64,000 bases of DNA from Streptomyces roseifaciens (lineage in GTDB: Bacteria; Actinomycetota; Actinomycetes; Streptomycetales; Streptomycetaceae), in the NCBI RefSeq assembly GCF_001445655.1, contig NZ_LNBE01000003.1:1904530-1968529 (forward strand), written 5' to 3'. The position numbers and the translations under genes were made by a program. The notes under the pieces were generated by a model, which was given only the letters and a program-made list of their open reading frames with translations, was not told the origin of the DNA and ran no database searches. Position 1 is the stretch's first letter, and the number at the start of each line of letters is the position of its first letter. Below are positions 36,993 through 51,836 of this stretch, piece by piece.

Positions 36993-38708
36993 CTATCCGT
37001 CCGTCGAAGGACCGTGCACCTCGGCCGTACGAGGAAGAGCCAGCGCCGAGCCCTCGTGCAGCGTGATCCGGACCGGCGTGAAACCCGTGGCCTCGGCCCG
37101 CGGCTCCCCGGTGCCGGGGTTGCGGGCGAAGCGCGGATGCGCACCTCCGCTGATCTGGAGACGGACGCGGTGACCGGCGGCGAAGCGGTGGGCGGTCGAG
37201 CTCATCGGCACGGTGACCTCCGCGAGGGCCTGCCCGGCGGTCCGCAGCGGGATCAGCCCGTCGCAGACGTTGAGGGAACGGCCCTGCGCGTCCACGTCGC
37301 AGAGGCGGGCGAAGACATCGGCGCAGCCGGTGTCCGCGGAGATGCGCAGCTGCGCGGAGACCGGGCCGAGGACGTCGACGGGCGCAGTCAGCGGCGCGCT
37401 GGTGAACGTCACGACGTCGTCCCGCGCTTCCAGCGCCTTGTTGTCGCGGGGGCCGGCGCCGCGGGAGAGCAGGGGCCCGCCCAGGGACGGAGTGGGGTCG
37501 GCGGGATCGTAGCGGAACGTCTTCAGAGGCGTGGGTTCCGCGGAGGCATCCTGGCCGGCACCCCGGATGAGGTCCCCGTTCGCGGCGGGGAACCAGGCCG
37601 TCGTCATGCCGGGCGCCGCCGGCCAGTCGTCGAGGTCCCGCCACGTGCCGTCGCCGCCGACGTGCACGCGCACGCGTGCGGGGCGCAGGCCGGCGGGGTC
37701 GTCGCACAGGTGCGCGCGCAGCCAGGCGAGGCTCTCGGCGAAGACCTCGGGCCAACCCTGCTGAAGTGCGGAGGTGTGGGTCCAGGGACCGACCAGCAGG
37801 GAGGTTTCGCACCCGGCCCGGCGCAGCCGGGCGTACTGCTCGAGGGTCTGGTCGGCCAGGGCGTCGTGCCAGCCGGTGATCAGGCCGGTGGGCACGCTCA
37901 GCCGCTCCGCTGCCTCTCCCGGGGACGCGCCGTCCCAGTAGGGATCGCCGGCGTCCGGGTGCGTCATCACGTCGTCGAGCCAGGGCACCTCTCCGAGGGC
38001 GGGCACGTGCGCCCCGCGCAGCGGCCGCGCGGTGGTGATCTCGCGCATGCGCCGCTGCAGGCGCAGTGCCGCCCTCACGAAGGGGACGATCCCCCGGTGC
38101 TGGTACGTCATGCCGACGCCGACGGTGAGGGCGTTCTCCAGGCGGAGCGCGCCGTCCGCGTGGAAGAGGGCGTAGGGGTCGTGCAGGCCGACCTGGACCA
38201 CCATCGCCTTGAGCTCCGGCGGCGGGTCCAGGGCAAGGGCCCACTGCACGTAGCCGAGGTAGCTGGGTCCGACGGTGCCCAGGGTGCCGGTGAACCAGGG
38301 CTGCTCCCGCAGCCAGGACACCGCGGCCCGGCCGTCGGCGGCCTCGTTGCGCCACAGGTCGAACCGGCCGCCCGAGCCGCCGGTGCCGCGGCAGCTCTGC
38401 AGGACCACGTGGAAGCCCTGTTCGGCGAAGAGCAACCCGTACATCGGTGACCACGGCACTCCCCTGCCGTAGGGCGAACGCACGAGCAACGTGGGGAAGT
38501 CGCCCTCGGTGCGGGGGAAGTAGTGGTCGGTGCGCAAGGTGCTGCCGTCCGCGGCCGGTACCGACAGGCCCGGTTCCCAGCCGACTTCGTGCTGTGCGGC
38601 CGGCAGGCCGCGCCACGTCGCCCTCATCAGCCGGGAGCTGAGCGGCGGCTTCCCGGACGGTGCGCCCCAGACGGTCCTCGGGGCGGCATCGTGCGCATGC
38701 GGTGTCAT
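36993..38708 (-). CDS. CocE/NonD-family X-Pro-type hydrolase
   Basis: A 571-aa serine hydrolase: alpha/beta domain with the nucleophile motif GPSYLGY, the acid in TGWHDALADQ, and His in VGPWTHTS, followed by the C-terminal galactose-binding-like sandwich (about 400-565, with ADVFARLCDVDAQGRS). The family includes cocaine esterase, cephalosporin acylases and X-prolyl dipeptidyl peptidases. I use the ATG at 38708, which follows GAGGGGA; an ATG at 38726 lies right at the operator and has no ribosome site. Divergent from a TetR gene that probably represses it. Confidence 0.87.
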   Translation of the reverse strand: MTPHAHDAAPRTVWGAPSGKPPLSSRLMRATWRGLPAAQHEVGWEPGLSVPAADGSTLRTDHYFPRTEGDFPTLLVRSPYGRGVPWSPMYGLLFAEQGFHVVLQSCRGTGGSGGRFDLWRNEAADGRAAVSWLREQPWFTGTLGTVGPSYLGYVQWALALDPPPELKAMVVQVGLHDPYALFHADGALRLENALTVGVGMTYQHRGIVPFVRAALRLQRRMREITTARPLRGAHVPALGEVPWLDDVMTHPDAGDPYWDGASPGEAAERLSVPTGLITGWHDALADQTLEQYARLRRAGCETSLLVGPWTHTSALQQGWPEVFAESLAWLRAHLCDDPAGLRPARVRVHVGGDGTWRDLDDWPAAPGMTTAWFPAANGDLIRGAGQDASAEPTPLKTFRYDPADPTPSLGGPLLSRGAGPRDNKALEARDDVVTFTSAPLTAPVDVLGPVSAQLRISADTGCADVFARLCDVDAQGRSLNVCDGLIPLRTAGQALAEVTVPMSSTAHRFAAGHRVRLQISGGAHPRFARNPGTGEPRAEATGFTPVRITLHEGSALALPRTAEVHGPSTDG

Positions 38709-38729
38709 CGTGTTCCCCTCACTCATTTA

Positions 38730-39613: not shown

Positions 39614-41050
39614 GTGTCCGAAGACATCCTGTACGGCCTCGCCGGCAACCCCGCCGCCCCTCCCGACGTGCTCCTGCGCCTACTGCGATCGGAAAGTCCT
39701 GATACGGGGGAGAGGGTGGCGCGGCGGGCGGACCTTCCCGACGAGGTGATCGACGCGATCGTGAGCCACCCCGACGTGAAGGTCCGGTCCGCGTTCGCCG
39801 AAAGCCCGCTCGCCCCGGGCGCGCAGCGGGCACGCCTGGTCGGTGACAAGCCCAAGGTCCGGCTGGCCCTGGCCGCCGGCCCCCTGATCTTCCGGCGCCG
39901 GCCCGAGCCCCTGCCCGACGAGACCTACGAGCGCCTGTTCAACGATCCGCGCCCGATCATCCGCCACGAGGCGCTGATGTCGCCGTCCCTCCCCGCCCGC
40001 GTCCTGGCGGGCCTCGCCGACAGCCCCGACCCGGACCTGCGCCACGCCGCCTGCCGCGCATGGCACGAACTGACGCCCGAGGCCCGGGAGGCGCTGCTCG
40101 CCGACGAGGAGCCGTACGTACGCCGGGCCGCCGCCCTCCGCGCGGCACCCGGCGACGTGCGCCACGCCGCGGAGCTCGTCGGTGAACTCGACCGCTGGGA
40201 CCTCGCCCTCCTGCTGACCCACGGCCGGCTCGACCGTGGCCTGGCCGAACGCTACGCGCACAGCGACGAGCCGTCCGAGCGGATGGCGATCGCCGAGAAC
40301 CCCTCCCTCCCCACCGACCTGGTCGCCCACCTCGCCCGGGACCCCCACCACCCCGTACGCCTCGCCGTCTCCGCCCGCCCGGAGCTCACGGAGACCCAAC
40401 GCGCGGCCATCGACTACGAGATCGGCCCCGGCGACCGGCTGCGTCCGCTGCTCTGGGTCTGGGAAGCCCGCGAGGACGCCGACGTCATGCGTCGCTGCGT
40501 CCACTCCTCCCACATATGGCTGCGCCGCAGTGCGGCCGTCAGCCCGCACCTCCCGCCCGACCTCGTCGCCCGCCTCGCCCGCGACGACGACTTCGCCGTC
40601 CGGCTCCTGCTGTGCGAGCACCATCCGGCACCGCCGCCGGAACTCATGTGGCGGATCCTCCTCGAGTGGGACGGCTACACCCGCTGGTGGCTGCTGGACA
40701 AGCCCGGCTTCCCCCTGCACCGCCTGGCCGCCCTCGCGCACCACGAAGACCCCGGACTGCGCCGCTTCGCCCTCCGCGCCCCCGACGCCTCACCCGAACT
40801 GCTCGACCGGCTCAGCAGGGACGAGGTCGGCTACGTACGCCACGAGGCGGCCGGCGATCCGAGACTGCCCCTGCCCCGGCTGCACGAACTGCTCGCCGAC
40901 CCCGCAAACGCGTGCTACGCAGCCCAGAACCCGGCCCTTTCGACAGCCGAAATGCGCCGGCTCCTCGACGAGGCGGGCCTGGCCGTCCAAACGACAAGAG
41001 GTGCGTCGAGTGGCGCCGTCGCGGCCGGCGGTCCGGTCACAGGTTGTTGA
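39614..41050 (+). CDS. HEAT/LRV-like repeat protein
   Basis: A 478-aa soluble helical-repeat protein. Units of about 24 residues recur through the length, each with a pattern like NPSLPTDLVAHLARDPHHPV, RLAVSARPELT, and similarly SPHLPPDLVARLARDDDFAV. This is the leucine-rich-variant or HEAT-like solenoid seen in many Streptomyces proteins, probably a protein-binding scaffold. GTG start at 39614. Its last 14 bases overlap the end of the convergent ATPase gene. Confidence 0.8.
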   Translation: MSEDILYGLAGNPAAPPDVLLRLLRSESPDTGERVARRADLPDEVIDAIVSHPDVKVRSAFAESPLAPGAQRARLVGDKPKVRLALAAGPLIFRRRPEPLPDETYERLFNDPRPIIRHEALMSPSLPARVLAGLADSPDPDLRHAACRAWHELTPEAREALLADEEPYVRRAAALRAAPGDVRHAAELVGELDRWDLALLLTHGRLDRGLAERYAHSDEPSERMAIAENPSLPTDLVAHLARDPHHPVRLAVSARPELTETQRAAIDYEIGPGDRLRPLLWVWEAREDADVMRRCVHSSHIWLRRSAAVSPHLPPDLVARLARDDDFAVRLLLCEHHPAPPPELMWRILLEWDGYTRWWLLDKPGFPLHRLAALAHHEDPGLRRFALRAPDASPELLDRLSRDEVGYVRHEAAGDPRLPLPRLHELLADPANACYAAQNPALSTAEMRRLLDEAGLAVQTTRGASSGAVAAGGPVTGC

Positions 41051-41816
41051 AGCGCTTCATCCGGTCCAGGATCCGGTCGGCGTCCGGGTGGTGGAGTTCG
41101 TCGGTGATGCGGCCGTCGGCCAGGAAGACGACGCGGTCGGTGTAGGCGGCGGCCGCCGGGTCGTGGGTGACCATGATGATGGTCTGCCCCATGCGGTGGG
41201 TCAGGTGGGCGAGGAGGGAGAGGACTTCGGCGCTGGTGGGGGTGTCGAGGTTGCCGGTGGGTTCGTCCGCGAAGACGATGTCGGGCCGGCCGGCGAGGGC
41301 CCGGGCGCAGGCGACGCGTTGCTGCTGCCCGCCGGACAGTTCTCCGGGGCGGTGGCCGAGCCGGTCCGTGAGGCCGAGCGTGGTGACGACCTGATCGAGC
41401 CACTGCCGGTCCGGGCGCCGGCCGGTGATGGCCAGGGGCAGGGTGATGTTCTCCGCCACGGTCAGGGCGGGCAGGAGGTGGAACGCCTGGAAGATGAACC
41501 CGATCCGTTCCCTGCGCAGGCGGGTCAGCCGGCGCTCGGAGAGGCCGGCCAGGTCGGTGTCGCCGATGAGGGCCCTTCCGGACGTGGGCGTGTCCAGTCC
41601 TGCGAGGCACTGCATGAGCGTGGATTTGCCCGACCCGGAGGGGCCCATGATGGCGGTGAACTGCCCCTGCTGGAATGCCACGCTCACACCGTCGAGGGCT
41701 GCGACGCGGCGTGCTCCGCTGCCGTACACCTTGCTGAGGTCCACCGCGGAAGCGGCCGGCGGATGGTGTGCGTAGGGCTGGTGTGCCGGGCCGTGGCGCA
41801 GGTGTGCCCAGGTCAT
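41037..41816 (-). CDS. ABC transporter ATP-binding protein, LolD/MacB type
   Basis: The 259-aa ATPase is complete: Walker A GPSGSGKST, Q-loop FIFQAFHLLPALT, signature LSGGQQQRVACARAL, Walker B IVFADEPTGNLD, and H-loop MVTHDPAAAAYTD. The sequence belongs to the group that pairs with FtsX/MacB-type permeases. It is the last gene of the lanthipeptide operon and its ATG overlaps the stop of the prolyl oligopeptidase gene (ATGA). The obvious partner is the FtsX-like permease four genes upstream. Confidence 0.92.
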   Translation of the reverse strand: MTWAHLRHGPAHQPYAHHPPAASAVDLSKVYGSGARRVAALDGVSVAFQQGQFTAIMGPSGSGKSTLMQCLAGLDTPTSGRALIGDTDLAGLSERRLTRLRRERIGFIFQAFHLLPALTVAENITLPLAITGRRPDRQWLDQVVTTLGLTDRLGHRPGELSGGQQQRVACARALAGRPDIVFADEPTGNLDTPTSAEVLSLLAHLTHRMGQTIIMVTHDPAAAAYTDRVVFLADGRITDELHHPDADRILDRMKRFNNL

Positions 41817-44008
41817 GCGGTGCTCCTCAAGGACGGTGCGGGTGCGGTCGGCTGCCGGAGCGCCCGGAGCGGGGAGGGCGCGTTCACGTCGGTGGCTGGC
41901 GAGGGCGGGTCCGGTCTCGTGGGTGCGGCGAGGCCGGTGCGGGTGGCGAGGAGGGCCAGGACGCGGGCGCTGAGGGCCGTGGCGGCGGTGCCGGTGCGCC
42001 CGTGGTGGCCTGTGTCGGGCTGGTGGTCCAGGAGGACGGGCTGCCGGGCGGCGGTCGCCTCCTGGAGCGCGGCGCAGAGTTTCCAGGCGTGCCAGGGAGG
42101 GACCCGTGCGTCGTTGCCCCCGGTGATCAGGAGCGTGGCCGGGTAGGACTCGCCCTGCCGTACGTGGTGACAAGGCGAGTACGCCAGGAGCGCTGCCATT
42201 GCGGCCGGGTCGGCGGGGTCCCCGTACTCGTCGTGCCACAGGCGGCCCAGGCCGCCGCCCGAGGTGTAGCGGGCCATGTCGGTGAGGGGCGCGGCGCAGG
42301 CGACGGCCGAGAAGAGGCGAGGGGCGCGGAGCACCGCTGCGGCCAGCACCAGGCCGCCGTTGCTCGCGGCCAGTGCGGCGAGCTGTCCCGGGCCCGCCTC
42401 GCCCTGGTCGACGAGGGCGCGCGCGGCTGCGCACAGGTCGTCGACGGTGCGCGACTTGCCCGCGCCCCGCCCCGCCGCCGCCCACTCCGGGCCGAATTCG
42501 CCGCCGCCCCGGGCGTGGACCCAGGCCACGCGCCCGCCGGCGGTGAGCCATGCGGCGAGGATGGGGTCCCAGGAGGGTTCGAGGGGGACGCCGAAGCCGC
42601 CGTAGACGGTGACCAGGACCGGGGCCGGGCCGGTGCCGGCGGAGGGCGGGTCGCAGATGGTGACGGGGAGGGAGGTGCCGTCGCTGCTGACGGCGGTCGA
42701 GGTACGGAGGGGGGAGTGGCCTGCCGGCGGGGCGACGGGTGGTGCGCCGGGGGTGAGGCGGTGGCTCCAGCAGCCGTCCCGCGGGTCGTCGGCCAGGATC
42801 CACAGCGCGTCGCCGGGACGGCCGTCATCACCGTACGAGGCAGGTCCGATGCGCAGCCGGGCGTGCCAGGTCAGGACCGTGGTGCCCCGGCTTCCCGCTT
42901 CGGTCGTCGGCTCAGCAGGGACTCCGTCCTCGGCACGCATGCCGTGGGTGGGCTGCATGCCGAGCGTGCCGAGCAGGCTGAGGCGCCGGGTGGTGCCGTG
43001 CTGCCTCAGGACCGCCAGGCACGGGTACGGTCCCGGCCCCAGGACGCGCATGGCCTTGACCTCTCCTGGCGTCGGCCCGGCATCGGCGGGGCGGGGGAGC
43101 GGGGCGGGGGCCGTGATGTGCCCGCGGGCCGCGTCCGGCAGGGCCAGCGCCGAGACCTCCCGGCCTGTGGCGAGGTAGAGATGGCTCGCGCCGAGGGCGA
43201 ACGCGGTGATACGGAGGTCGTCGAGGGGAAGGGGCTGCCAGTCGGGCGTGCCGTGGCCGTCCCAGAGGGTGCACCACCACTGTGCCGAGGGCGCCTTCGC
43301 CGTCCGGGTGCGCAGCAGCAGATGGCCTCCGGGCCCGCAGTGCAAGGTGATCCTCGCCGGTCCGGGGACGGGAAGTTCCACGGTCCGGTGAGGATGCCGG
43401 GCCGCGCTCCGGGCCGGGTCATCACGTAACGGGCGGGCGTGCAGGGTGTGTTCGGTGCGGGTGCCGGCGCTGTAGAGCAGGAGGCCGTCGGCGTAGGCCA
43501 CGGCGGGGTGGGGTGAGGCGTCGGGAAGGTACGCCGCGGGTGCGGTGCCGTCGGTGGGGATCAGGTGGAGGCCGCCGTTCTCGTGCCCGTCGTGGTGGAG
43601 CTGGACGAGCAGGGCGCGGCCGTGGGGGTCGGGGTGCCAGCCCGCCGTCCTGGTGGGGGAGGGGCGGTCGCCGGTGTCCAGGAGGGTGCGGGTGCGGCCG
43701 TGCGGGTCGGTCGCGGTGAGGAGTTCGCTGCCGGAGGCGCTCAGCACCTGCCGGAAGAGCATCCCTCCCGCTTCCACCGGTGGGTTCAGGAGGCGGCCCG
43801 AAGTGGCGGTCTCGATCCTGTGCAGCAGCGACTGCCAGCCGCGGTCGTCGGTGCGTTCCCGGTGGGCTTCCAGCAGGTGCTGCTGCGTTGTCAGCCACGC
43901 GCGCGTGCGTGACGAGTTCTCCTCCAGCCAGCGGTAGGGATCCGCCGGTTCACCGGTCCGCCCGTCCGGCCGGGTACCCTCACCGGCCACTGGCACGCTG
44001 TCAGCCAC
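41813..44008 (-). CDS. Prolyl oligopeptidase (S9A), probable lanthipeptide leader peptidase
   Basis: A 731-aa S9A protease without a signal peptide: N-terminal start DPYRWLEENSSRTRAWL, beta-propeller, and C-terminal hydrolase with the nucleophile in AASNGGLVLAA, the Asp in ITGGNDARVPPWH and the His in DTGHHGR. It cleaves short peptides after proline. A POP of this kind (FlaP, Kribbella flavida) removes the leader of a class III lanthipeptide, and all three precursors here contain a single Pro near the expected leader end. The GTG start overlaps the MFS gene by eight bases, and the stop overlaps the ATPase start, so it is part of the operon. Confidence 0.9.
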   Translation of the reverse strand: MADSVPVAGEGTRPDGRTGEPADPYRWLEENSSRTRAWLTTQQHLLEAHRERTDDRGWQSLLHRIETATSGRLLNPPVEAGGMLFRQVLSASGSELLTATDPHGRTRTLLDTGDRPSPTRTAGWHPDPHGRALLVQLHHDGHENGGLHLIPTDGTAPAAYLPDASPHPAVAYADGLLLYSAGTRTEHTLHARPLRDDPARSAARHPHRTVELPVPGPARITLHCGPGGHLLLRTRTAKAPSAQWWCTLWDGHGTPDWQPLPLDDLRITAFALGASHLYLATGREVSALALPDAARGHITAPAPLPRPADAGPTPGEVKAMRVLGPGPYPCLAVLRQHGTTRRLSLLGTLGMQPTHGMRAEDGVPAEPTTEAGSRGTTVLTWHARLRIGPASYGDDGRPGDALWILADDPRDGCWSHRLTPGAPPVAPPAGHSPLRTSTAVSSDGTSLPVTICDPPSAGTGPAPVLVTVYGGFGVPLEPSWDPILAAWLTAGGRVAWVHARGGGEFGPEWAAAGRGAGKSRTVDDLCAAARALVDQGEAGPGQLAALAASNGGLVLAAAVLRAPRLFSAVACAAPLTDMARYTSGGGLGRLWHDEYGDPADPAAMAALLAYSPCHHVRQGESYPATLLITGGNDARVPPWHAWKLCAALQEATAARQPVLLDHQPDTGHHGRTGTAATALSARVLALLATRTGLAAPTRPDPPSPATDVNAPSPLRALRQPTAPAPSLRSTA

Positions 44009-45302
44009 GGCTCGCCTCCACCGTTGGAGCCTCCACCGGCGGCACCTCTCCGACGCGGGCCTCCTGTGCGTCCGTGGCCACCTGCGCGTCCAGGGACTGC
44101 TGCGCCTCCGCCGCCACCGTACGGCGGGCGGTGGTGAACCAGCCCACCACGGCCAGGAGGACGACCAGGGCGGCCGCCGCCGTGACCGTCGGCCCCAGGC
44201 CGAAGGCGTGTGCGCTCGCTCCGGCGAGCGTGGGCCCGAGCGGGGCGACGGCCTGGGAGAGGAAGCCGCTGGCACTGTGGACGCGCCCCTGCAGCTGCGG
44301 CGGCGTGATGCGCATCTGCATCGAGGAGAGCACCACCGTGATCACGGGGCCGCCGGCGGTGGCGATCGCCAGCATGAGGGCCGCGCCCCACGTACTGCGG
44401 ACCGTGGCGAAGCCGAGCAGCGCGAGGGCGATGACGGCGGTGGCCAGGGCGATGCCCCGGCCTGCGGGGAGTCTGCGCGCCACCGGGGCGGCGATCAGGG
44501 ATCCGGCCACCGCGCCCGCACCGAAGCAGGCGGTCTGCACGCCCACGGCCACCGAGCCCGCGCCGGTCCTGTCGCAGGAGGCGATGACGACGATCAGCAG
44601 GCCGTTGAAGACGAGGTTGAGGACGGTGGCGTTGAGCGCGCCGTAGCGCAGGAAGGGGGACCGCCACAGGAAGCGCAGGCCTTCGGTGACGGCCCGCAGC
44701 GCCGGCTGCTGCCCCCCGGTGGGGCCCGCTTTGGCGGGGAGGAGGAAGGCGCAGCAGGCCGCGGTGAGATAGGTCAGGGCGTCGGCGGCGAAGACCCAGG
44801 CGGCGTTGGCCTTGAGCAGCACGCCTGCCACGAGAGGGCCGACGATCAGTGCGAGTGCGGCACGGCTCTGGATCAGGGCCAGGGCGCGGGGGAGCAGGTC
44901 GGCCCGGACGAAGGTGCGCACGGCCACGTTCTCGACGGGGGCCAGGGTGCTGCCCACGGCGCCGAGGAGGAAGGCGGCGGCCAGGAGGGCGCCCGGGTGG
45001 ACGGAGCCCGCCGCACGGAGCACGGCCAGGGTGCCGAGCACCAGGGCGCCGACGGCGTTGCCCAGGAGGAGGAGCGTCCGGCGTTCGTAGCGGTCGGCGA
45101 GCACCCCGGCGGGCAGCCGGGCCACCACGATCCCCAGGGACAGCGCGGTACTGGTGAATCCGGCGTGCCGGACGTCGCCGCTCACCTGGTAGGCGACCAT
45201 GGGCAGGGCGATGACCGAGGCCGCCGTGCCCACGGCGGAGGCGGCCTCCCCGCTGAACAGCAGCCAGAACCGCCTGCCCAGCTTCTGCTTCGGCTGCTTC
45301 AC
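44001..45302 (-). CDS. MFS transporter in the lanthipeptide operon
   Basis: A 433-aa major facilitator with 12 predicted helices, motif A near LADRYERRTLLLLGNAVG and a C-terminal Glu/Ala-rich cytoplasmic tail. It resembles the MFS_3/enterobactin-exporter-like group. GTG start overlaps the permease stop by four bases (GTGA). Probable role is export of the mature peptide or self-protection; the presence of both MFS and ABC transporters is unusual for such a small cluster. Confidence 0.87.
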   Translation of the reverse strand: MKQPKQKLGRRFWLLFSGEAASAVGTAASVIALPMVAYQVSGDVRHAGFTSTALSLGIVVARLPAGVLADRYERRTLLLLGNAVGALVLGTLAVLRAAGSVHPGALLAAAFLLGAVGSTLAPVENVAVRTFVRADLLPRALALIQSRAALALIVGPLVAGVLLKANAAWVFAADALTYLTAACCAFLLPAKAGPTGGQQPALRAVTEGLRFLWRSPFLRYGALNATVLNLVFNGLLIVVIASCDRTGAGSVAVGVQTACFGAGAVAGSLIAAPVARRLPAGRGIALATAVIALALLGFATVRSTWGAALMLAIATAGGPVITVVLSSMQMRITPPQLQGRVHSASGFLSQAVAPLGPTLAGASAHAFGLGPTVTAAAALVVLLAVVGWFTTARRTVAAEAQQSLDAQVATDAQEARVGEVPPVEAPTVEASRG

Positions 45303-47269
45303 GCCGCCCTCCTTGCGAACTGTTGCCGGACGGTGGACATCGGGTGGGCGGTCATCACCGAGGGCAGGGCGACCGCCAGGGCGGCGGCGGCCAGGACCGC
45401 GGCGGTCCACGGCACGTCCAGGGCGGGCAGCGCCCCGGTGCCCAGGGACGCGGCGAAGGGGACCAGGCAGGCGACTGCCGTGGCGGCCGCCAGCGCCGCC
45501 CCGACGGCGGCCGCGCCGAACGCTTCGTAGAGCACGCAGCGCAGCAGCTGGCCTCTGCTCAGCCCGAGGGCGCGCAGGTGGGCGCGCTGGGCGCGGCGGT
45601 CGCGCTGGGCCAGGGAGGCGGTGTTGGCCGCGGCCAGCAGCGCGTAGCCGCTGACGACGGAGACGATCAGGCGCGAGGCGAGGTCGTCGGCGGGGTTGCG
45701 GGGCTTCAGGTCGTCGAGGTACTGCGCGCGGGAGGCGACGGTCTGACCGGTCTCCTTCGACCAGGAGCGGTACGCACCGCTGAGCAGGATCCGGTCGGCG
45801 TACGGTTCCCGGGTGTGCTGCAGGGCCGTGGTGCGGGCGATGACGAACGCCGGGAAGGCGAGGTCGCGTTCGTAGACGGCGACGAGGGTCAGCTCGGGGC
45901 GGGACCCGTCCGCCAGGGCGAGCCGGACCTTCTGGCCGAGCCGCCAGTGATGGGCCTCCGCCTGGCCGACGCCGGCGGCGAACGTCCCCTCCCGCAGCGC
46001 CGACAGCCGGCCTTCGCGTTCCTTGAGGTCCAGGGACTGCACGAGCGCGGAACCGTCGGCCCCCCAGGCGTCCACGGGAGAGGGCTGGTCGTCGAAGGAC
46101 GTGGGAGGCGCGGTGATCCGCGTGGACACCAGCACCGTGGCGGTGACGCCGGAGAGCGCTCCGGGCCCGCCGGAGGACGCGGCGGGCTGCGCGGGAAGGC
46201 GGTGCCCGGGGCGGGCGGTGACCACGCCGTCGGCGCGCAGCCCGTCGCCCGTCTGGCGCGCGACGGCCTCCCCCATGGTGGCGCCGGTGCCCAGCAGACA
46301 GACGGCGATCCCCACCGCGAGCAGGACGGGCACCGCCATCGCCGTCGTCCGCGCGGGAGCCGCCCGCAGCCCGGCGGCGGCGATACGTCCCACCCGCCGG
46401 TCCGCGATCCGCAGGACGGCGCACACCGGCCGGGTCAGCAGGGGCACGATCCACGGCGCGAGGACGGCGAGCGTGGGGATGAGCACCAGGGCGAGGCCGG
46501 GGGCGACGGCAGCCCGCACCGTCGAGGGGAGTTGCGTGAAGGCCATGACGTACAGCAGCGGAACGCACAGCATCACGGCCATGGTCAGGCCGGTCAGCAG
46601 CCGCGCCCGGCTGCGGCGGGAAGCCAGGGCCCCTTCCGTGTCCTTCAGGAGCGCGCCGGGACCGACGCGCCCGGCGGCGAAGACGCTGGCCATCGCGGCC
46701 AGGACGGCCACCGCCCCGGTGGCGATGCACACGCCCAAGGCCGTGCCCCAGACCTGGCCCGTGGAGGGCAGGGAGGCAGCTTCGGGGAAGAGCTCGCGGT
46801 TCACCAGGAGGCGTCGCCCCGCGTGCGCCAGGGGCAGCATGCCCAGGGCTCCCACGGCGGCCGCGGCGATCGCGAGCCGGGCCACGTCGCCGGCGACCAG
46901 GCGCCGCAGCCGCCCGGCCGTGACGCCGAGCGCGCGCAGTACGGCGAACTGCCCGAGCCGCTGCCCCGTCCACAGCGACACGGTCGAGCCGATCACCAGC
47001 ACGGCGCACATCAGCAGAATGGACAACAGCAGCGAGAGCAGGTTGCGGGCGTCCTGGGCCTGGGTCGCCGCCACGGAGCGGGCGGGGAAGTCCGCGCGGC
47101 CAGCACCGATCAGGAGCAGCGTGCAGGCGCCCACTCCCGCCGCCGTCATGGCACAGGCCATCGCGGCTCCGGCCAGGCGGCCGGGGTAGGCGCGCGCTTC
47201 GGCGAGGAAGAGGCGGCGCATTCGCATCGGTCCGGCGAGGGGGCGAGAGGGGTGGGACGCCTCGGACAC
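45299..47269 (-). CDS. FtsX/MacB-like ABC permease
   Basis: A 656-aa permease with the two-module FtsX architecture: helix 1 (about 22-45), a membrane block about 70-180, a second half with helices near 210-330 and a periplasmic-type domain (about 380-520), then a final three-helix block (about 540-640, LRALGLSRGQLLRCVLYEAF). It pairs with the LolD-type ATPase at the operon end. GTG at 47269 follows GGAGGGCAG; a later ATG (47227) is possible. A hairpin separates it from the precursor genes. Likely role: export or immunity against the lanthipeptide. Confidence 0.85.
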   Translation of the reverse strand: MSEASHPSRPLAGPMRMRRLFLAEARAYPGRLAGAAMACAMTAAGVGACTLLLIGAGRADFPARSVAATQAQDARNLLSLLLSILLMCAVLVIGSTVSLWTGQRLGQFAVLRALGVTAGRLRRLVAGDVARLAIAAAAVGALGMLPLAHAGRRLLVNRELFPEAASLPSTGQVWGTALGVCIATGAVAVLAAMASVFAAGRVGPGALLKDTEGALASRRSRARLLTGLTMAVMLCVPLLYVMAFTQLPSTVRAAVAPGLALVLIPTLAVLAPWIVPLLTRPVCAVLRIADRRVGRIAAAGLRAAPARTTAMAVPVLLAVGIAVCLLGTGATMGEAVARQTGDGLRADGVVTARPGHRLPAQPAASSGGPGALSGVTATVLVSTRITAPPTSFDDQPSPVDAWGADGSALVQSLDLKEREGRLSALREGTFAAGVGQAEAHHWRLGQKVRLALADGSRPELTLVAVYERDLAFPAFVIARTTALQHTREPYADRILLSGAYRSWSKETGQTVASRAQYLDDLKPRNPADDLASRLIVSVVSGYALLAAANTASLAQRDRRAQRAHLRALGLSRGQLLRCVLYEAFGAAAVGAALAAATAVACLVPFAASLGTGALPALDVPWTAAVLAAAALAVALPSVMTAHPMSTVRQQFARRAA

Positions 47270-47310
47270 TGTCTTCTGCCCTCCACAGTGCGTAAGCTGG
47301 AAGCAGCGCA

Positions 47311-47339
47311 GGGGAGGCCACCCACATTGTGGCCTCCCC
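47311..47339 (-). terminator. Hairpin between precursor genes and transporter genes (attenuator)
   Basis: A perfect 11-bp stem, 47311-47321 with 47329-47339, and a seven-base loop, with no T tract. Partial termination here would keep precursor transcripts far more abundant than those of the downstream transport and protease genes. Confidence 0.7.
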
Positions 47340-47379
47340 GCGCTCATTTACGGCCGGTGCGACCGTTGATGACATAGCG

Positions 47380-47469
47380 TCAGTGGCACACGACGACGCT
47401 GACGGAGCTCAGAGGAGCGTCGAGGACAGTCTCCTCGTCGAGCTCCTGCAGGGCGAGAACGTTCAGCAT
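47380..47469 (-). CDS. Class III lanthipeptide precursor (third copy)
   Basis: A 29-aa peptide: leader MLNVLALQELDEETVLDAPL and core SSVSVVVCH. The core has the labionin motif S-x2-S-x3-C (Ser21, Ser24, Cys28). The leader has the LQ(E)L...E pattern recognised by class III synthetases and ends in Ala-Pro-Leu. ATG preceded by a perfect AAGGAGGTGA. It differs from the first copy only by Val for Ile at residue 4. The intact ribosome site and duplicated arrangement make it a real gene despite its size. Confidence 0.93.
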   Translation of the reverse strand: MLNVLALQELDEETVLDAPLSSVSVVVCH

Positions 47470-47535
47470 TCCTTGTCACCTCCTTCAGGGGCGCGGTGGG
47501 GAAGGGTCGGTCCCGGTCTGCGCCGGGGCGGTCTT

Positions 47536-47625
47536 TCAGTGGCAGCCGCCGAGGCTGATGGTGCTGATGGGGGCGTCGACGATCGTCTCCTCGTCGAGCT
47601 CCTGCAGGGCCAGAATGTTCTGCAT
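47536..47625 (-). CDS. Class III lanthipeptide precursor (second copy, variant core)
   Basis: A 29-aa peptide: leader MQNILALQELDEETIVDAPI and core STISLGGCH. It keeps the labionin motif (Ser21, Ser24, Cys28) and the leader, but the core differs (Thr22, Ile23, Leu25, Gly26, Gly27), so the operon should yield two distinct products. ATG preceded by AAGGAGGTGA. Confidence 0.93.
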   Translation of the reverse strand: MQNILALQELDEETIVDAPISTISLGGCH

Positions 47626-47689
47626 GTCCGTTCACCTCCTTCAGGGGTGTCGTGGGAGAGGGCCGGTTCCGGTCTGCGCCGGCCGAGTG

Positions 47690-47779
47690 TCAGTGGCACA
47701 CGACGACGCTGACCGAGCTCAGGGGAGCGTCGAGGACGGTCTCCTCGTCGAGCTCCTGCAGGGCGAGAATGTTCAGCAT
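47690..47779 (-). CDS. Class III lanthipeptide precursor (first copy)
   Basis: A 29-aa peptide: leader MLNILALQELDEETVLDAPL and core SSVSVVVCH with Ser21, Ser24 and Cys28 forming the labionin motif. Its ATG is 18 bases after the synthetase stop codon and follows GAGGAGGTGAG. The nine-residue core is much shorter than SapB or labyrinthopeptin and would hold a single labionin or lanthionine ring. Confidence 0.93.
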   Translation of the reverse strand: MLNILALQELDEETVLDAPLSSVSVVVCH

Positions 47780-47797
47780 GGCTTCTCACCTCCTCTC

Positions 47798-50404
47798 TCA
47801 GGCTTGTGGGGCCGGGTGGTCCGGAGCGTCGCTCCCGGCGGGCGGCCACCCGCAGGTGGGGTGGGCGCCGGGGAGCAGACGGCTGCCGGGGTTCTGGGCG
47901 GCGACGAGCGCGATCACCGCGCCGGCGGAGCCGGTCGCCAGGTCCGCCGAGAGACGGACCAGCTGGTCGCCGTGCAGGACGTGAGCGTCCTCGTACGGCG
48001 CCAAGTGCAGGGAAAGGGCGCGCAGATGGCTGTCCAGCTCTGCTCGCCACCGCCCCGTACGGGCCGGGGCGTGGGAGAGCAGGTACGCCAGCCCGGAGCG
48101 GCCGTTGAACAGCCCGCCCTGCAGGACGACTTCCACCGCGCCGGCCCGGGCGGCGCCGGCCACGATGCCGTCGGCACCGACCGCGGCCGCCTGGGGCGGG
48201 GGAAGCGCGAGGGCGGCCATCGCGACGCCGGCGGAGCCTTCCGCCAGGTAGGGCAGCAGCCGGCTCGAACTGTGCATCTGCAGCATGCCGTCCACGTCAC
48301 GGGCGTGCACCAGGTCGCAGCGTACGGCGCGTTCGGCCGCCGCCGCCCATTGCAGGTCTCCGGTCACTTCCGCGCAGCGGGCCAACAGCACCGCCGGCCC
48401 CGACCAGCCGTACATCAGCCCCGGCCGGTCCAGCAGTCCCTTGACCCCCACCCGTTCACGTACCCGCAGGGCGAGGGCGAGTGCTTCGTCCTTCAGCCCG
48501 ACGTCCAGGAAGAGGTGAGCGATTCCGGACAGTCCGCCGAAGAGGCCCGGTGAGGCGGGCAGGGGACCGGCCAGGAGGCGGTCGACCAGGTTCGCGCCCT
48601 GCGGGTGCCCGAGCCGGTGCAGGATCCACGCGGCACCTGCCAGCCCGTCGTAGAGACCGGGCGGCGCATCCAGGGGAGCCCGGAGCGCGGTATTGGCCAG
48701 CCATTCCACGTCCTCCCCGGAGACCGTGCTCCCGGCGGCATGCCGTGCCCACAGCACGCCCGGCGTGCCGTACGCGAGCCCCATTGAGGCGCCCGGACGG
48801 TACCCGGCCACGTCGCAGGGGTAGCGCCGGTCCTTACGGCCGGGGTCGGCGGAGCGGGAGATGCCTTGCAGCAACGTTTCCGCGGTCGGTGCGGTCGGTG
48901 CGGTCAGCGTCGGTGGGTCGGTGGGGATGCCGCCGGGTGCTCCTGCGGGTGTTCCTGCAGGCGTTCCGGGAGGTGGCAAGTGGGGGCGCAGCGTGGGCGA
49001 CAGCGCCAGGAGTTCGGTCATCTGCCGGACGAACTCCGCCGGCAGGGAGGGGAAGGACGCACGGGCCAGTCCGATCAGTGAGGCCACGACGCGAGGGTTG
49101 CGCAAGGTCAGCACGGTGAGGGGGACGAGGGCGGCGAGCTGGCAGCAGCCCAGGGCGAACAGGTCCGCCTCGCGTGGATCGGTCAGGGCGGGGTCGGCGA
49201 AGCCGGGCGCCCCCAGCGCCGCACTGCGGACCGAGTCGAGCGGGGCGGCGAGCTCGAAGTCCACGAGCGCCACGGTGCCGTCGGGCCGGATCAGGATGTT
49301 GCGGTGGTGGAGGTCGCCGAAGGCCACTCCGGCCTCGTGCAGCGCCCGTACGCATCCCGCGACCTGTTCCATCCGCTCGACGACGGAGGCGGCGAAGCGG
49401 CTACGGGCCGCCGCGGCGGGCCGGTGGCGGGTGAGCGGGTGCTCGCGCCCCAGCCAGGCGCTGACGGTCTCCCCTTCGACGTACTCCATGGCGAGGTAGT
49501 GGTGTTCCCAGGCCGTGAAGGAGCCGTACCGCCGCGGGACGAACGGCAGGTGCCCGAGTCTGCCGAGGACCGCGTCCTCGGTGCGCAGTCTCGCGACCGC
49601 GTCCAGGCCGTTGGCGTCGAGGCCGGCGTGCGGCCGGGCCTCCTTGAGGACGACTTGTCCGCCGTGGCCGTCGGCCGCGAGGTACACGCCCCCGCCGTTG
49701 GAGAAGTGGAGTGCTTTGCGGACCTCGTAGCCGCCGAGTGAGGCCGGCGCGCCGTCGGCCGCCGGCTGCTCCGCGAGGAAGTCCGGGACGTCTGCCCACG
49801 GAGGGACGGTGAAGACCGGGCGGCGGGGGTCGGGCACGAGCTGCCCCTGCGGGGTGCGCATCGCGGGGACCCGTGTGCCGTCGGCGAGTTCGCACCACAT
49901 CAGCGTGAAGGCTCCGTAGCGGACCGATACCGGGCCGTCGTTCCAGCGCCGGTCGGACAGTACGTAGGGCCCGGGCCGTCCGCGCATCGCCGTCTCGAGC
50001 TCCTCCAAAGCCGTGCGCAGTTCGTCCGTGGTCCGGGGGTAGACGGTCACGGTCTTGCCGCTTGCGGCCCGGTGGGCGTACTTGGTGTTCATCGCGGCGA
50101 CGATCTGCCGGCTGCGCAGGAACTTCCACGGCAGCCCCAGCCGCCGGCAGACGTTCCAGGCTGCCTCTATCGTCTCCTCGGCGGCTCCGGGCGTCGCACT
50201 CACGTGGATCTTCCAGCCCTGCTCCGGCAGCTTCGCGGCGTCACCGGGCGTCAGGAATTGCCATACGCCCTGGTGTTCCCGCCGCCATCCCTCCGGGAGT
50301 TCCCGCACGGAGAGGGAGACCAGGGAATCCGAATCCTGGCAGCGGTCCAGCGGCTCGTACCACGTGGAATCTGCGATGGTGTACGTCTCGTACCTCGGAT
50401 CCAT
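47798..50404 (-). CDS. Class III lanthionine synthetase LanKC (RamC/LabKC type)
   Basis: An 868-aa three-domain enzyme. N-terminal lyase-like region (about 1-215, WKIHVSATP, VTVYPRTTDEL), kinase (about 225-470: catalytic Lys in VVLKEARPH, FGDLHHRNILI with Asp364, DFE at 382-384), and C-terminal cyclase-like domain (about 525-860). The cyclase lacks the Zn-binding Cys-Cys-His set (GLFNGRSGLAY stands where class IV has Cys-His-Gly), so this is class III. It phosphorylates and eliminates Ser to dehydroalanine, then forms lanthionine or labionin. ATG at 50404 follows GGGAGGG; an ATG at 50434 is less likely. It heads the operon. Confidence 0.93.
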   Translation of the reverse strand: MDPRYETYTIADSTWYEPLDRCQDSDSLVSLSVRELPEGWRREHQGVWQFLTPGDAAKLPEQGWKIHVSATPGAAEETIEAAWNVCRRLGLPWKFLRSRQIVAAMNTKYAHRAASGKTVTVYPRTTDELRTALEELETAMRGRPGPYVLSDRRWNDGPVSVRYGAFTLMWCELADGTRVPAMRTPQGQLVPDPRRPVFTVPPWADVPDFLAEQPAADGAPASLGGYEVRKALHFSNGGGVYLAADGHGGQVVLKEARPHAGLDANGLDAVARLRTEDAVLGRLGHLPFVPRRYGSFTAWEHHYLAMEYVEGETVSAWLGREHPLTRHRPAAAARSRFAASVVERMEQVAGCVRALHEAGVAFGDLHHRNILIRPDGTVALVDFELAAPLDSVRSAALGAPGFADPALTDPREADLFALGCCQLAALVPLTVLTLRNPRVVASLIGLARASFPSLPAEFVRQMTELLALSPTLRPHLPPPGTPAGTPAGAPGGIPTDPPTLTAPTAPTAETLLQGISRSADPGRKDRRYPCDVAGYRPGASMGLAYGTPGVLWARHAAGSTVSGEDVEWLANTALRAPLDAPPGLYDGLAGAAWILHRLGHPQGANLVDRLLAGPLPASPGLFGGLSGIAHLFLDVGLKDEALALALRVRERVGVKGLLDRPGLMYGWSGPAVLLARCAEVTGDLQWAAAAERAVRCDLVHARDVDGMLQMHSSSRLLPYLAEGSAGVAMAALALPPPQAAAVGADGIVAGAARAGAVEVVLQGGLFNGRSGLAYLLSHAPARTGRWRAELDSHLRALSLHLAPYEDAHVLHGDQLVRLSADLATGSAGAVIALVAAQNPGSRLLPGAHPTCGWPPAGSDAPDHPAPQA

Positions 50405-50768
50405 GGTGCCCTCCCGCCGTGCTGCAGGCGGCATCTTCTTATGCCGTCGTCAATGTCTGAAAAGGGTTACTGGTTACCGGAGTTCTGCGACCGGTGCGAC
50501 CGGTGCGACCGGTGTGTGGAACGCTTTTCCGTTCCGCTACGAGAATCCTGCACCTGCTCGCCACCGCCCGGCAATCGGCGTAAGCCCACGCTTAACCGGA
50601 GATCTACCATCCGGTAATGCGTGGGGCGGGCGGCCCGGATCCACATCGTCAAGCGATATCCGTCGAATTCCGGAGAGTTGCAGGCATCCGGCCGGACAGG
50701 CGCGCGGTATCCGCAACGCACGGGTCCGCCGAGCAGCCGGGGAACGCCGACGGCCGGGAGCCGAGTCA
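50405..50768. promoter_or_regulatory. Lanthipeptide operon upstream region with repeated elements
   Basis: A possible minus-strand promoter is TTGCCG (50569-50574), 18 bases, CAGGAT (50545-50550). Related elements TTA(A)CCGGA occur at 50475-50482 and 50592-50600 and, inverted, at 50610-50617; the last two form a dyad with an 9-11-base gap. Three 9-base repeats (gcgaccggt) lie at about 50488-50515 in the leader. These are candidate sites for a pathway regulator. No gene is seen in the stretch. Confidence 0.4.
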
Positions 50769-51836
50769 TCACAGTGCCACCGCAGCCGCGGGCGTCCGTC
50801 TGTCCCGGGCCTGCGGCAACGCCGCCCCGCGCAGCACCGGTTCTGCCGCGTGACGTTCCGTCGCATGCCTCTCGGTCGGATGCTGCTCGGCCGGGTGCTG
50901 CTCGGCCGGGTGCCGCTCCGCCGCCTCGCCCCGTAGCAGGAGGTGGCCGAGACGGGTGACGGTGTGGATCGCATGGCTGCGGTTGCGACGCGTCGAGACC
51001 AGGCCGGCGGCCCGCAGGACGGCCATGTGCTGGCTCACCGCGGCCGCGGACACGCCCAGCCGTTCGGCCAGCTCGGCGTTGGTGCAGCCCTCGCGCAGCG
51101 CGCGCAGTGCGGCCGCTCTGGTCCGCCCGACCAGGGCGGCGAGGCTGTCCGGCCCGCACTGCGGACCGGCTGCCCGTCCGCCGCCCAGCAGCCGCGTGAG
51201 CTCCTCCGGCCCCGGACGGTCGGGAAACACCAGGACGGGGGCGCGGTGCGCGCCCTGCCGGGCCGGCGGGAGCACATGCCCTGCGCGCTGCAGGAACAAG
51301 GACGGGGCCAGCACCAGCCCGCTGCCGTCCAGTTCCCTCTCTCCGGAACGTACGCCCGCGATCTCCAAGGCCGGTGCGTTCCAGCGGATTCCCGGACCCA
51401 GCGAGTCCAGCAGCACTTCCACGCCGTCACGGCACATGATGTCCCGCAGGGTGTCCCGGACCTCGCCGAGATAGGCGCGGATCCGCCCCCAGTGCGGTGC
51501 GACGGCCATCTGCTGGAAGTCCTGGACCGCGGAATGCACGGACACGGCGGGAACCCCGGCCCCGTTCGGGGGAACCATGGTGTGGCGTCCCCCGCCGGTA
51601 CACAATTCCAGCAGCTTTCCCGGACCGCCCGGAACCCGGATCAGCGTCGCGACCCGCTCCATTCTCGGATCGGGCCGGCGGCCGCCCCCGCACACCCCTT
51701 GCCGCCATGCGCGAAAACCTTCTCCACGGCCTTCCCGGAGCGCCTCCAAGGCGAACAGCGCCTCCATGGACAGGAGATCCGATTCACTGATCCTCACGCG
51801 TGCCAGGTCGTCGACCGACAAAATGATGCGATACAT
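50769..51836 (-). CDS. ArsR-like winged-helix regulator next to the lanthipeptide operon
   Basis: A 355-aa protein with a long N-terminal domain (about 1-215), an ArsR/GntR-like winged helix (about 230-300: ALREGCTNAELAERLGVSAA, AVSQHMAVLRAAGLVSTRRN) and a C-terminal tail of degenerate pentapeptides (AEQHP, TERHA). This is the Streptomyces layout with an unknown N-terminal sensor fused to an ArsR-type DNA-binding domain. ATG at 51836. It is co-directional with and 364 bases upstream of the LanKC gene, so control of the operon is plausible, but not shown. Confidence 0.78.
   Translation of the reverse strand: MYRIILSVDDLARVRISESDLLSMEALFALEALREGRGEGFRAWRQGVCGGGRRPDPRMERVATLIRVPGGPGKLLELCTGGGRHTMVPPNGAGVPAVSVHSAVQDFQQMAVAPHWGRIRAYLGEVRDTLRDIMCRDGVEVLLDSLGPGIRWNAPALEIAGVRSGERELDGSGLVLAPSLFLQRAGHVLPPARQGAHRAPVLVFPDRPGPEELTRLLGGGRAAGPQCGPDSLAALVGRTRAAALRALREGCTNAELAERLGVSAAAVSQHMAVLRAAGLVSTRRNRSHAIHTVTRLGHLLLRGEAAERHPAEQHPAEQHPTERHATERHAAEPVLRGAALPQARDRRTPAAAVAL

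Follow-up and report, generated by a model that had tools for sequence, protein, structure and literature searches.

Gene content and conservation of the lanthipeptide operon

The DNA analyzed here, a 64,000-nucleotide stretch of Streptomyces roseifaciens (contig NZ_LNBE01000003.1, positions 1,904,530 to 1,968,529; referred to here as the window), carries a lanthipeptide operon on the minus strand of positions 41037-51836. An initial annotation made from the sequence had named a LanKC, three 29-codon genes, an FtsX permease, a major facilitator superfamily (MFS) transporter, an S9A protease and a LolD ATPase at this site, and every one of these genes was found there. Transcription runs in the order regulator, lanKC, lanA1-lanA2-lanA3, FtsX permease, MFS transporter, S9A peptidase and LolD/MacB-type ATPase, with the following features:

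50769..51836, minus strand: ArsR-type winged-helix regulator, 355 amino acids (aa); HTH_5/HTH_20 above cut-off, winged helix C-terminal
47798..50404, minus strand: lanKC, lyase-kinase-cyclase, class III lanthionine synthetase, 868 aa; NF038151; RamC_N, Pkinase, LANC_like
47690..47779, minus strand: lanA1, MLNILALQELDEETVLDAP-LSSVSVVVCH; full precursor MLNILALQELDEETVLDAPLSSVSVVVCH; NF038154 23.8 bits
47536..47625, minus strand: lanA2, MQNILALQELDEETIVDAP-ISTISLGGCH; full precursor MQNILALQELDEETIVDAPISTISLGGCH; NF038154 23.3 bits
47380..47469, minus strand: lanA3, MLNVLALQELDEETVLDAP-LSSVSVVVCH; full precursor MLNVLALQELDEETVLDAPLSSVSVVVCH; NF038154 25.1 bits
47305..47344, minus strand: 16-pair RNA stem-loop without a T run, between lanA3 and the FtsX gene
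45299..47269, minus strand: FtsX-type ABC permease; PF02687, two FtsX stretches; 58-69% identity in five relatives
44001..45302, minus strand: MFS transporter, 433 aa; PF07690/PF05977; 60-71% identity in five relatives
41813..44008, minus strand: S9A prolyl oligopeptidase (POP), 731 aa; PF00326
41037..41816, minus strand: LolD/MacB-type ABC ATPase; ABC_tran, LolD-like; 66-77% identity in five relatives

The lanKC start was set by homology (MDPRY/MDPKY) and the FtsX start by ribosome site; start codons were likewise assigned to the other transport genes and the protease gene. The genes had been described as lying on one strand with overlaps; the strand is indeed shared, and overlaps occur only among the four last genes (FtsX/MFS 4 nt, MFS/S9 8 nt, S9/LolD 4 nt). 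The lanKC-lanA region is gapped, with 18 nt between lanKC and lanA1, 64 and 66 nt between successive lanA genes, and 110 nt from lanA3 to the FtsX start. The ATPase, which scores under the LolD equivalog cut-off despite its LolD-like match, is the presumed partner of the FtsX-type permease, itself a candidate for a role in export or self-protection. Homologs of the regulator lie 5' of lanKC in all five relatives described below (43-58% identity), and the ArsR-type protein is the probable controller of the operon.

LanKC scored 838 bits against the class III synthetase model NF038151 (cut-off 575) and only 347 bits against the class IV synthetase model, where 650 are needed. Its domains follow the lyase-kinase-LanC-like order (RamC_N, Pkinase, LANC_like), and it retains the lyase loop N-x-K...SGK and the kinase motifs GDLH and DFE. 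A zinc-ligand Cys-His pair was found neither in its cyclase domain nor in any of the 34 aligned LanKC rows. At the position of ThurKC F770-D771, which corresponds to the Cys-His of NisC, the window LanKC reads F-N; Asp771 is reported as needed in ThurKC (PMC10604976), and its equivalent is Asn in the window LanKC and varied in the other rows. The lyase loop, the GDLH and DFE motifs and the absent zinc ligands together match the class III synthetases.

Relatives were identified with two LanKC peptide patterns in a collection holding one genome per species, and a further Streptomyces genome (G036, locus L034) was added as the fifth. LanKC identity to the window protein was 74% in S. acidiscabies (L040), 71% in S. 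flavofungini (L041), 68% in Streptomyces sp. L-9-10 (L042), 61% in S. rimosus (L043) and 60-62% in G036, a range of 60-74% across the five. The window and the five Streptomyces clusters share one gene order, regulator-lanKC-lanA(1-4)-FtsX-MFS-[POP]-ATPase, in which the POP gene is present in some clusters only. In a tree of the 34 aligned LanKC rows these six formed a single clade (support 100/100, stem 0.9); the tree tool warned of a long branch (L005) meeting this group, which affects the joining point and not the six themselves.

The subfamily is, by these sequence searches, uncommon. A LanKC match of at least 60% identity was found in 3 of 61 same-genus genomes including the window's own, with the next best at 43%. 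The leader pattern matched 29 of 246 Streptomyces genomes, and precursors of this type were seen in three of them, again counting the window's own, in a count that leaves one match (G247 contig 33) unread and uses a pattern that would miss variant leaders. A plasmid search returned 81 matching records, all below 60% identity.

Precursor peptides and the prolyl oligopeptidase

Each of the three lanA genes has 29 codons, a GGAGG sequence 9 nt before its ATG and the motif S-x2-S-x3-C, bearing out the motif and ribosome sites of the initial annotation. Among 26 ribosome-site-preceded starts of 25-45-aa open reading frames (ORFs) in the window, only lanA1-lanA3 end in this motif; because of this count and the recurrence of such genes with the same neighbors in five other clusters, the precursors are not a chance occurrence. 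All three pass the 22-bit cut-off of NF038154, a class III precursor model curated by NCBI, as do the eight relatives tested (out of 13), which reached or exceeded it. The remark that such ORFs are often missed by gene callers is therefore only partly right, since a curated model already recognizes them and the small lanA genes are not invisible to annotation. No window precursor matched NF033212 at E<=1, and Pfam RamS gave 12.6-13.1 bits against a cut-off of 24.3, so that the SapB/AmfS family models leave these peptides unrecognized. Since LanA1 and LanA3 share one predicted core, LSSVSVVVCH, the operon is expected to give two products and not three. The lanA2 core, ISTISLGGCH, is identical in Streptomyces sp. 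L-9-10.

The sixteen precursors of the six clusters all carry S-[ST]-x-S-x3-C. The +1 residue is Thr in 13 of them, eight have a C-terminal CH, and 15 are 28-30 aa long. The ratio of nonsynonymous to synonymous change (pN/pS) was 0.23 for leader codons vs 0.87 for core codons. These values are uncorrected and come from pairwise comparisons, not independent of one another, among 12 of the 16 genes; the other four were set aside for differences in length or spacing. A leader that appears held and a core that appears to vary round a fixed ring motif are as expected for a family of synthetase substrates. The remaining precursor, from S. flavofungini (L041:11741-11863), has 40 aa, LLSTLSLTGCHP-VTTISVGSCH, in which His-Pro stands between two ring units, the second reading T-x2-S-x3-C; a post-proline cut could divide it into two small peptides.

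The S9A peptidase matched the prolyl endopeptidase 2bkl best among solved structures in a sequence search (3.1e-48). The catalytic Ser, Asp and His are retained in all four POPs of the family, as are SNGG, D-x-R, GH, YGGF and W-x3-Y, among which we take YGGF, W-x3-Y and D-x-R to be proline-pocket motifs. The Pfam propeller model was weak for the window POP (E 0.0035) and above cut-off for those of S. flavofungini and Streptomyces sp. L-9-10. An AlphaFold model built with four sequences had a mean predicted local distance difference test (pLDDT) score of 58.5, the propeller half being more confident than the catalytic half. Its top PDB matches were prolyl oligopeptidases and related macrocyclases, at template modeling (TM) scores of 0.43-0.50 when normalized by this low-pLDDT model, and these fold matches lend weak support to the POP identity.

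Where a POP gene is present (four clusters), it lies between the MFS and ATPase genes each time, and in the window it overlaps both neighbors. Its presence tracks the residues preceding the core. In the clusters with POP, the dipeptide that precedes the first ring Ser by one residue is Ala-Pro in 11 of 13 precursors and Ala-Leu in two; in the two clusters lacking it, all three precursors have Glu-Gly there. A search of the G036 genome for S9 peptidases gave one weak match (E 6e-4), and a search of G072 gave none; this genome is taken as that of the S. rimosus cluster because its contig 142 has a LanKC match at the position found on the L043 contig. POPs are described as taking peptides of less than ~30 residues (PMC9147577); where a POP is encoded, 12 of 13 precursors fall below this limit, at 28-29 residues. 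Given the POP/proline pairing and precursor lengths below the POP limit, one-step release of the core by a cut after Pro19 is predicted. S9 peptidases have precedents in class III clusters, namely FlaP (PMC10885120) and NorP (PMC10206099), and the POP is a candidate leader peptidase. Its pairing with the precursor proline is new here.

The stem-loop after lanA3 is also new here. Its 90-nt region folds at -46.8 kcal/mol (z -4.3, with none of 200 shuffles as low), and single-sequence folds place a stem-loop at the same site in four of five relatives, G036 folding otherwise. When the stems were aligned, 88% of cells were paired, vs 47-57% when the alignment was slid. A promoter and terminator scan returned no promoter-like and four terminator-like elements, compared to 1.9 in shuffles, and none of these lay at the stem-loop. 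The element is a candidate attenuator or mRNA stabilizer, which may shield the lanA mRNA or limit how much transcription continues into the transporter genes.

Proposed pathway and alternative products

We interpret the locus as a class III operon of a small, distinct subfamily in which LanKC would install one labionin or lanthionine, the POP would cleave behind Pro19 and the resulting decapeptide would leave the cell, and assign this reading a probability of about 0.8. In this scheme, LanKC would bind the conserved LxLQEL leader, phosphorylate and eliminate both Ser of S-x2-S-x3-C, and possibly the +1 Ser/Thr as well, and join the dehydrated residues to Cys, giving labionin (a fused bicycle) or lanthionine. 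A cytosolic POP would then cleave after Pro19 in a single step, releasing LSSVSVVVCH from the lanA1 and lanA3 products and ISTISLGGCH from that of lanA2. FtsX/LolD and the MFS transporter may export these decapeptides, protect the cell, or both. The ArsR-type regulator would govern the operon, with the stem-loop 3' of lanA3 perhaps favoring precursor over transporter transcripts. As for biological role, our first guess is a surface or signaling peptide similar to SapB/AmfS. The initial annotation proposed a class III operon whose precursors are very short and whose core has about ten residues; this is supported by the family models, the conservation of six clusters and the POP/proline pairing. 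The 'single-ring' product and the mass of the core 'minus two waters' given there were guesses. Labionin on S-x2-S-x3-C would amount to two fused rings, and two or three dehydrations are possible because every precursor has three Ser/Thr in S-[ST]-x-S.

Several observations weigh against this scheme. The LanKC of Streptomyces sp. L-9-10 has DCE in place of the kinase DFE. The G-x-S-x-G motif cited for POPs (PMC9147577) reads A-A-S-N-G or S-A-S-N-G here, none of the four enzymes keeping the first Gly (three have Ala, one has Ser). In S. flavofungini, although a POP is present, two of the four precursors carry Leu for Pro, one of them being the 40-aa peptide that exceeds the POP size limit, and one S. 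rimosus precursor, from a POP-less cluster, has Pro directly before Glu-Gly. The pairing itself rests on six clusters and may reflect one evolutionary gain or loss. FlaP, the nearest tested POP, is reported to cleave at Pro(-12) and not at the core boundary (PMC10885120). Noursin production in S. lividans is described as strictly needing only norA and norKC (PMC10206099), and for this reason POP may be dispensable. Covariation in the stem was not above shuffles, 59 of 500 within-column shuffles reaching 88% pairing; we regard the stem-loop as a shared inverted repeat and do not claim compensatory change.

The most serious competitor concerns the ring, and we regard it as a tentative but substantial possibility: LanKC may yield only lanthionine, in a simple ring as in SapB/AmfS, or leave dehydroamino acids. 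The motif S-x2-S-x3-C is described as a source of either structure, lanthionine or labionin, depending on the class III peptide (PMC7268733), and the sequence gives no choice between them. The window core resembles the second half of precursors that look like SapB/AmfS, such as SSLSVVLCTP (L058) and SSLSVTTCN (L017), and SapB and AmfS are stated to carry two lanthionines, while labionin has been reported in durhapeptin and rochsin A (PMC13380574). Leader removal could also proceed differently, with POP and the transporters serving other peptides and an unclustered metalloprotease such as AplP acting on these precursors. Actinobacterial class III clusters are described as usually lacking a protease, and the known producers of class III and IV peptides as carrying AplP-like genes elsewhere in the genome (PMC10885120, PMC7268733). 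We consider this unlikely here, as the POP gene keeps its place between those for the MFS transporter and the ATPase in all four clusters that have it and tracks the precursor Pro.

A noursin-like product, in which LanKC would make a labionin and also link a +1 dehydrobutyrine (Dhb) or dehydroalanine (Dha) to the C-terminal His, would be a tricyclic, perhaps copper-binding decapeptide formed by three dehydrations. In residue make-up the window cores (three Ser/Thr, a single Cys, a single His) are comparable to the noursin core, described as having three Ser/Thr, one Cys and the crosslinked His11, and the LxLQEL leader and S9 peptidase are common to the nor cluster (PMC10206099). The spacing reported there for noursin (labionin (Lab) 3-7-15, Hbt 8-11) differs from that of the window cores, and the +1 Ser/Thr is found in 16 of 16 precursors while the C-terminal CH that would supply the His is found in eight; such a product seems improbable. 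No nor-like precursor appeared in a regular-expression scan of 92 loci. Taken further, the idea would make the decapeptides perhaps the smallest class III lanthipeptides: labionin and a crosslink from the invariant +1 Ser/Thr to His would together give a tricyclic, metal-binding scaffold, a dedicated POP would free it with a single cut, and the size limit of that enzyme would have kept the precursors short. This is a still longer shot.

Lipolanthines, too, are short, derive from class III systems and contain a single motif of this kind; their hallmarks are a Cys decarboxylase, acyl-chain genes and a C-terminal Cys. A related product here would have its C-terminal Cys decarboxylated to avionin and its N terminus acylated. 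Three of four S. acidiscabies precursors do end in Cys, but those of the window end in Cys-His, and no decarboxylase or fatty-acid/polyketide gene was detected by Pfam among the operon genes and ten flanking ORFs. With the C-terminal His and no decarboxylase seen among the ORFs tested, this reading was rejected as highly improbable.

Comparison with known systems and other loci

The operon looks like a real but uncommon member of an already known family of peptides and not a new kind of system. It shares LanKC, S-x2-S-x3-C and a hydrophobic core with SapB/AmfS (RamS, AmfS), and the window sequence SSVSVVVCH resembles one of the two repeats in the SapB/AmfS-looking precursor of L058. It differs from them in having one motif instead of two, an FtsX/LolD transporter, a POP in four of six clusters and its short precursors. 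As in flavipeptin, an S9 POP is encoded within the class III cluster; the FlaP cut is described as leaving further trimming (PMC10885120), whereas the window Pro abuts the ten-residue core. Likeness to noursin (NorA, NorKC, NorP) extends to the LxLQEL leader, LanKC, S9 peptidase and the set of three Ser/Thr, Cys and His, in contrast to its reported 16-residue core, other spacing and single precursor (PMC10206099). The S. pneumoniae class III family III 3 (LanPB), likened here by description only, combines Sx2Sx3C with a prolyl oligopeptidase in the cluster; it is from a Firmicute and additionally has a CAAX protease (PMC7268733).

The labyrinthopeptins come from a labionin-forming class III system with S-x2-S-x3-C type motif spacing; their cores, unlike those of the window, are longer and have more than one ring system, and we know of no POP in the labyrinthopeptin cluster. 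In the open-access papers searched, a set without supplements and most subscription articles, we found no account of this subfamily and no co-occurrence of LALQEL with lanthipeptide, and no small, short or single-labionin class III lanthipeptide was returned. From its sequence, the operon would represent class III chemistry cut down to one motif, with a protease predicted to act at the core boundary: a minimal scaffold of about one of SapB's two repeats, provided with tailoring genes and a putative one-step leader protease. If true, it would be a convenient system in which to study labionin formation and generate small cyclic peptides. The clusters divide naturally into those with proline and a POP and those with Glu-Gly and none, which permits a direct test of the protease role.

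A gene for an S15-type X-Pro dipeptidyl-peptidase family protein, another proline-directed hydrolase, lies at window positions 36993-38726 on the same strand, ~2.3 kb past the operon, and is read here as outside it. In genome G000, five LanKC genes satisfy the class III model; at one of them, L001, the adjacent precursor looks SapB/AmfS-like by eye. The window's own genome contains, outside the window (L036:6469-13847; contig C3 ~1554470-1561850), a row of genes for a radical S-adenosylmethionine (SAM) protein, a LanKC, two precursors of 31 aa each, MSEILDLQELEEETPSQWPCANSSHSTLGMG and MSEVLELQELEEETPSAWPCANSYESARGVA, and a second LanKC. The first of these LanKCs has altered lyase and kinase motifs and the second looks intact. 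The two precursors have Cys before most Ser/Thr, the opposite of the usual motif, and similar ones were also found in L045 (G084) and in L039 (G018), where a pair of LanKCs is present. Among the leader-pattern matches, L062 and L069 hold small ORFs with an LxLQEL leader and Cys-rich or Cys-first cores.

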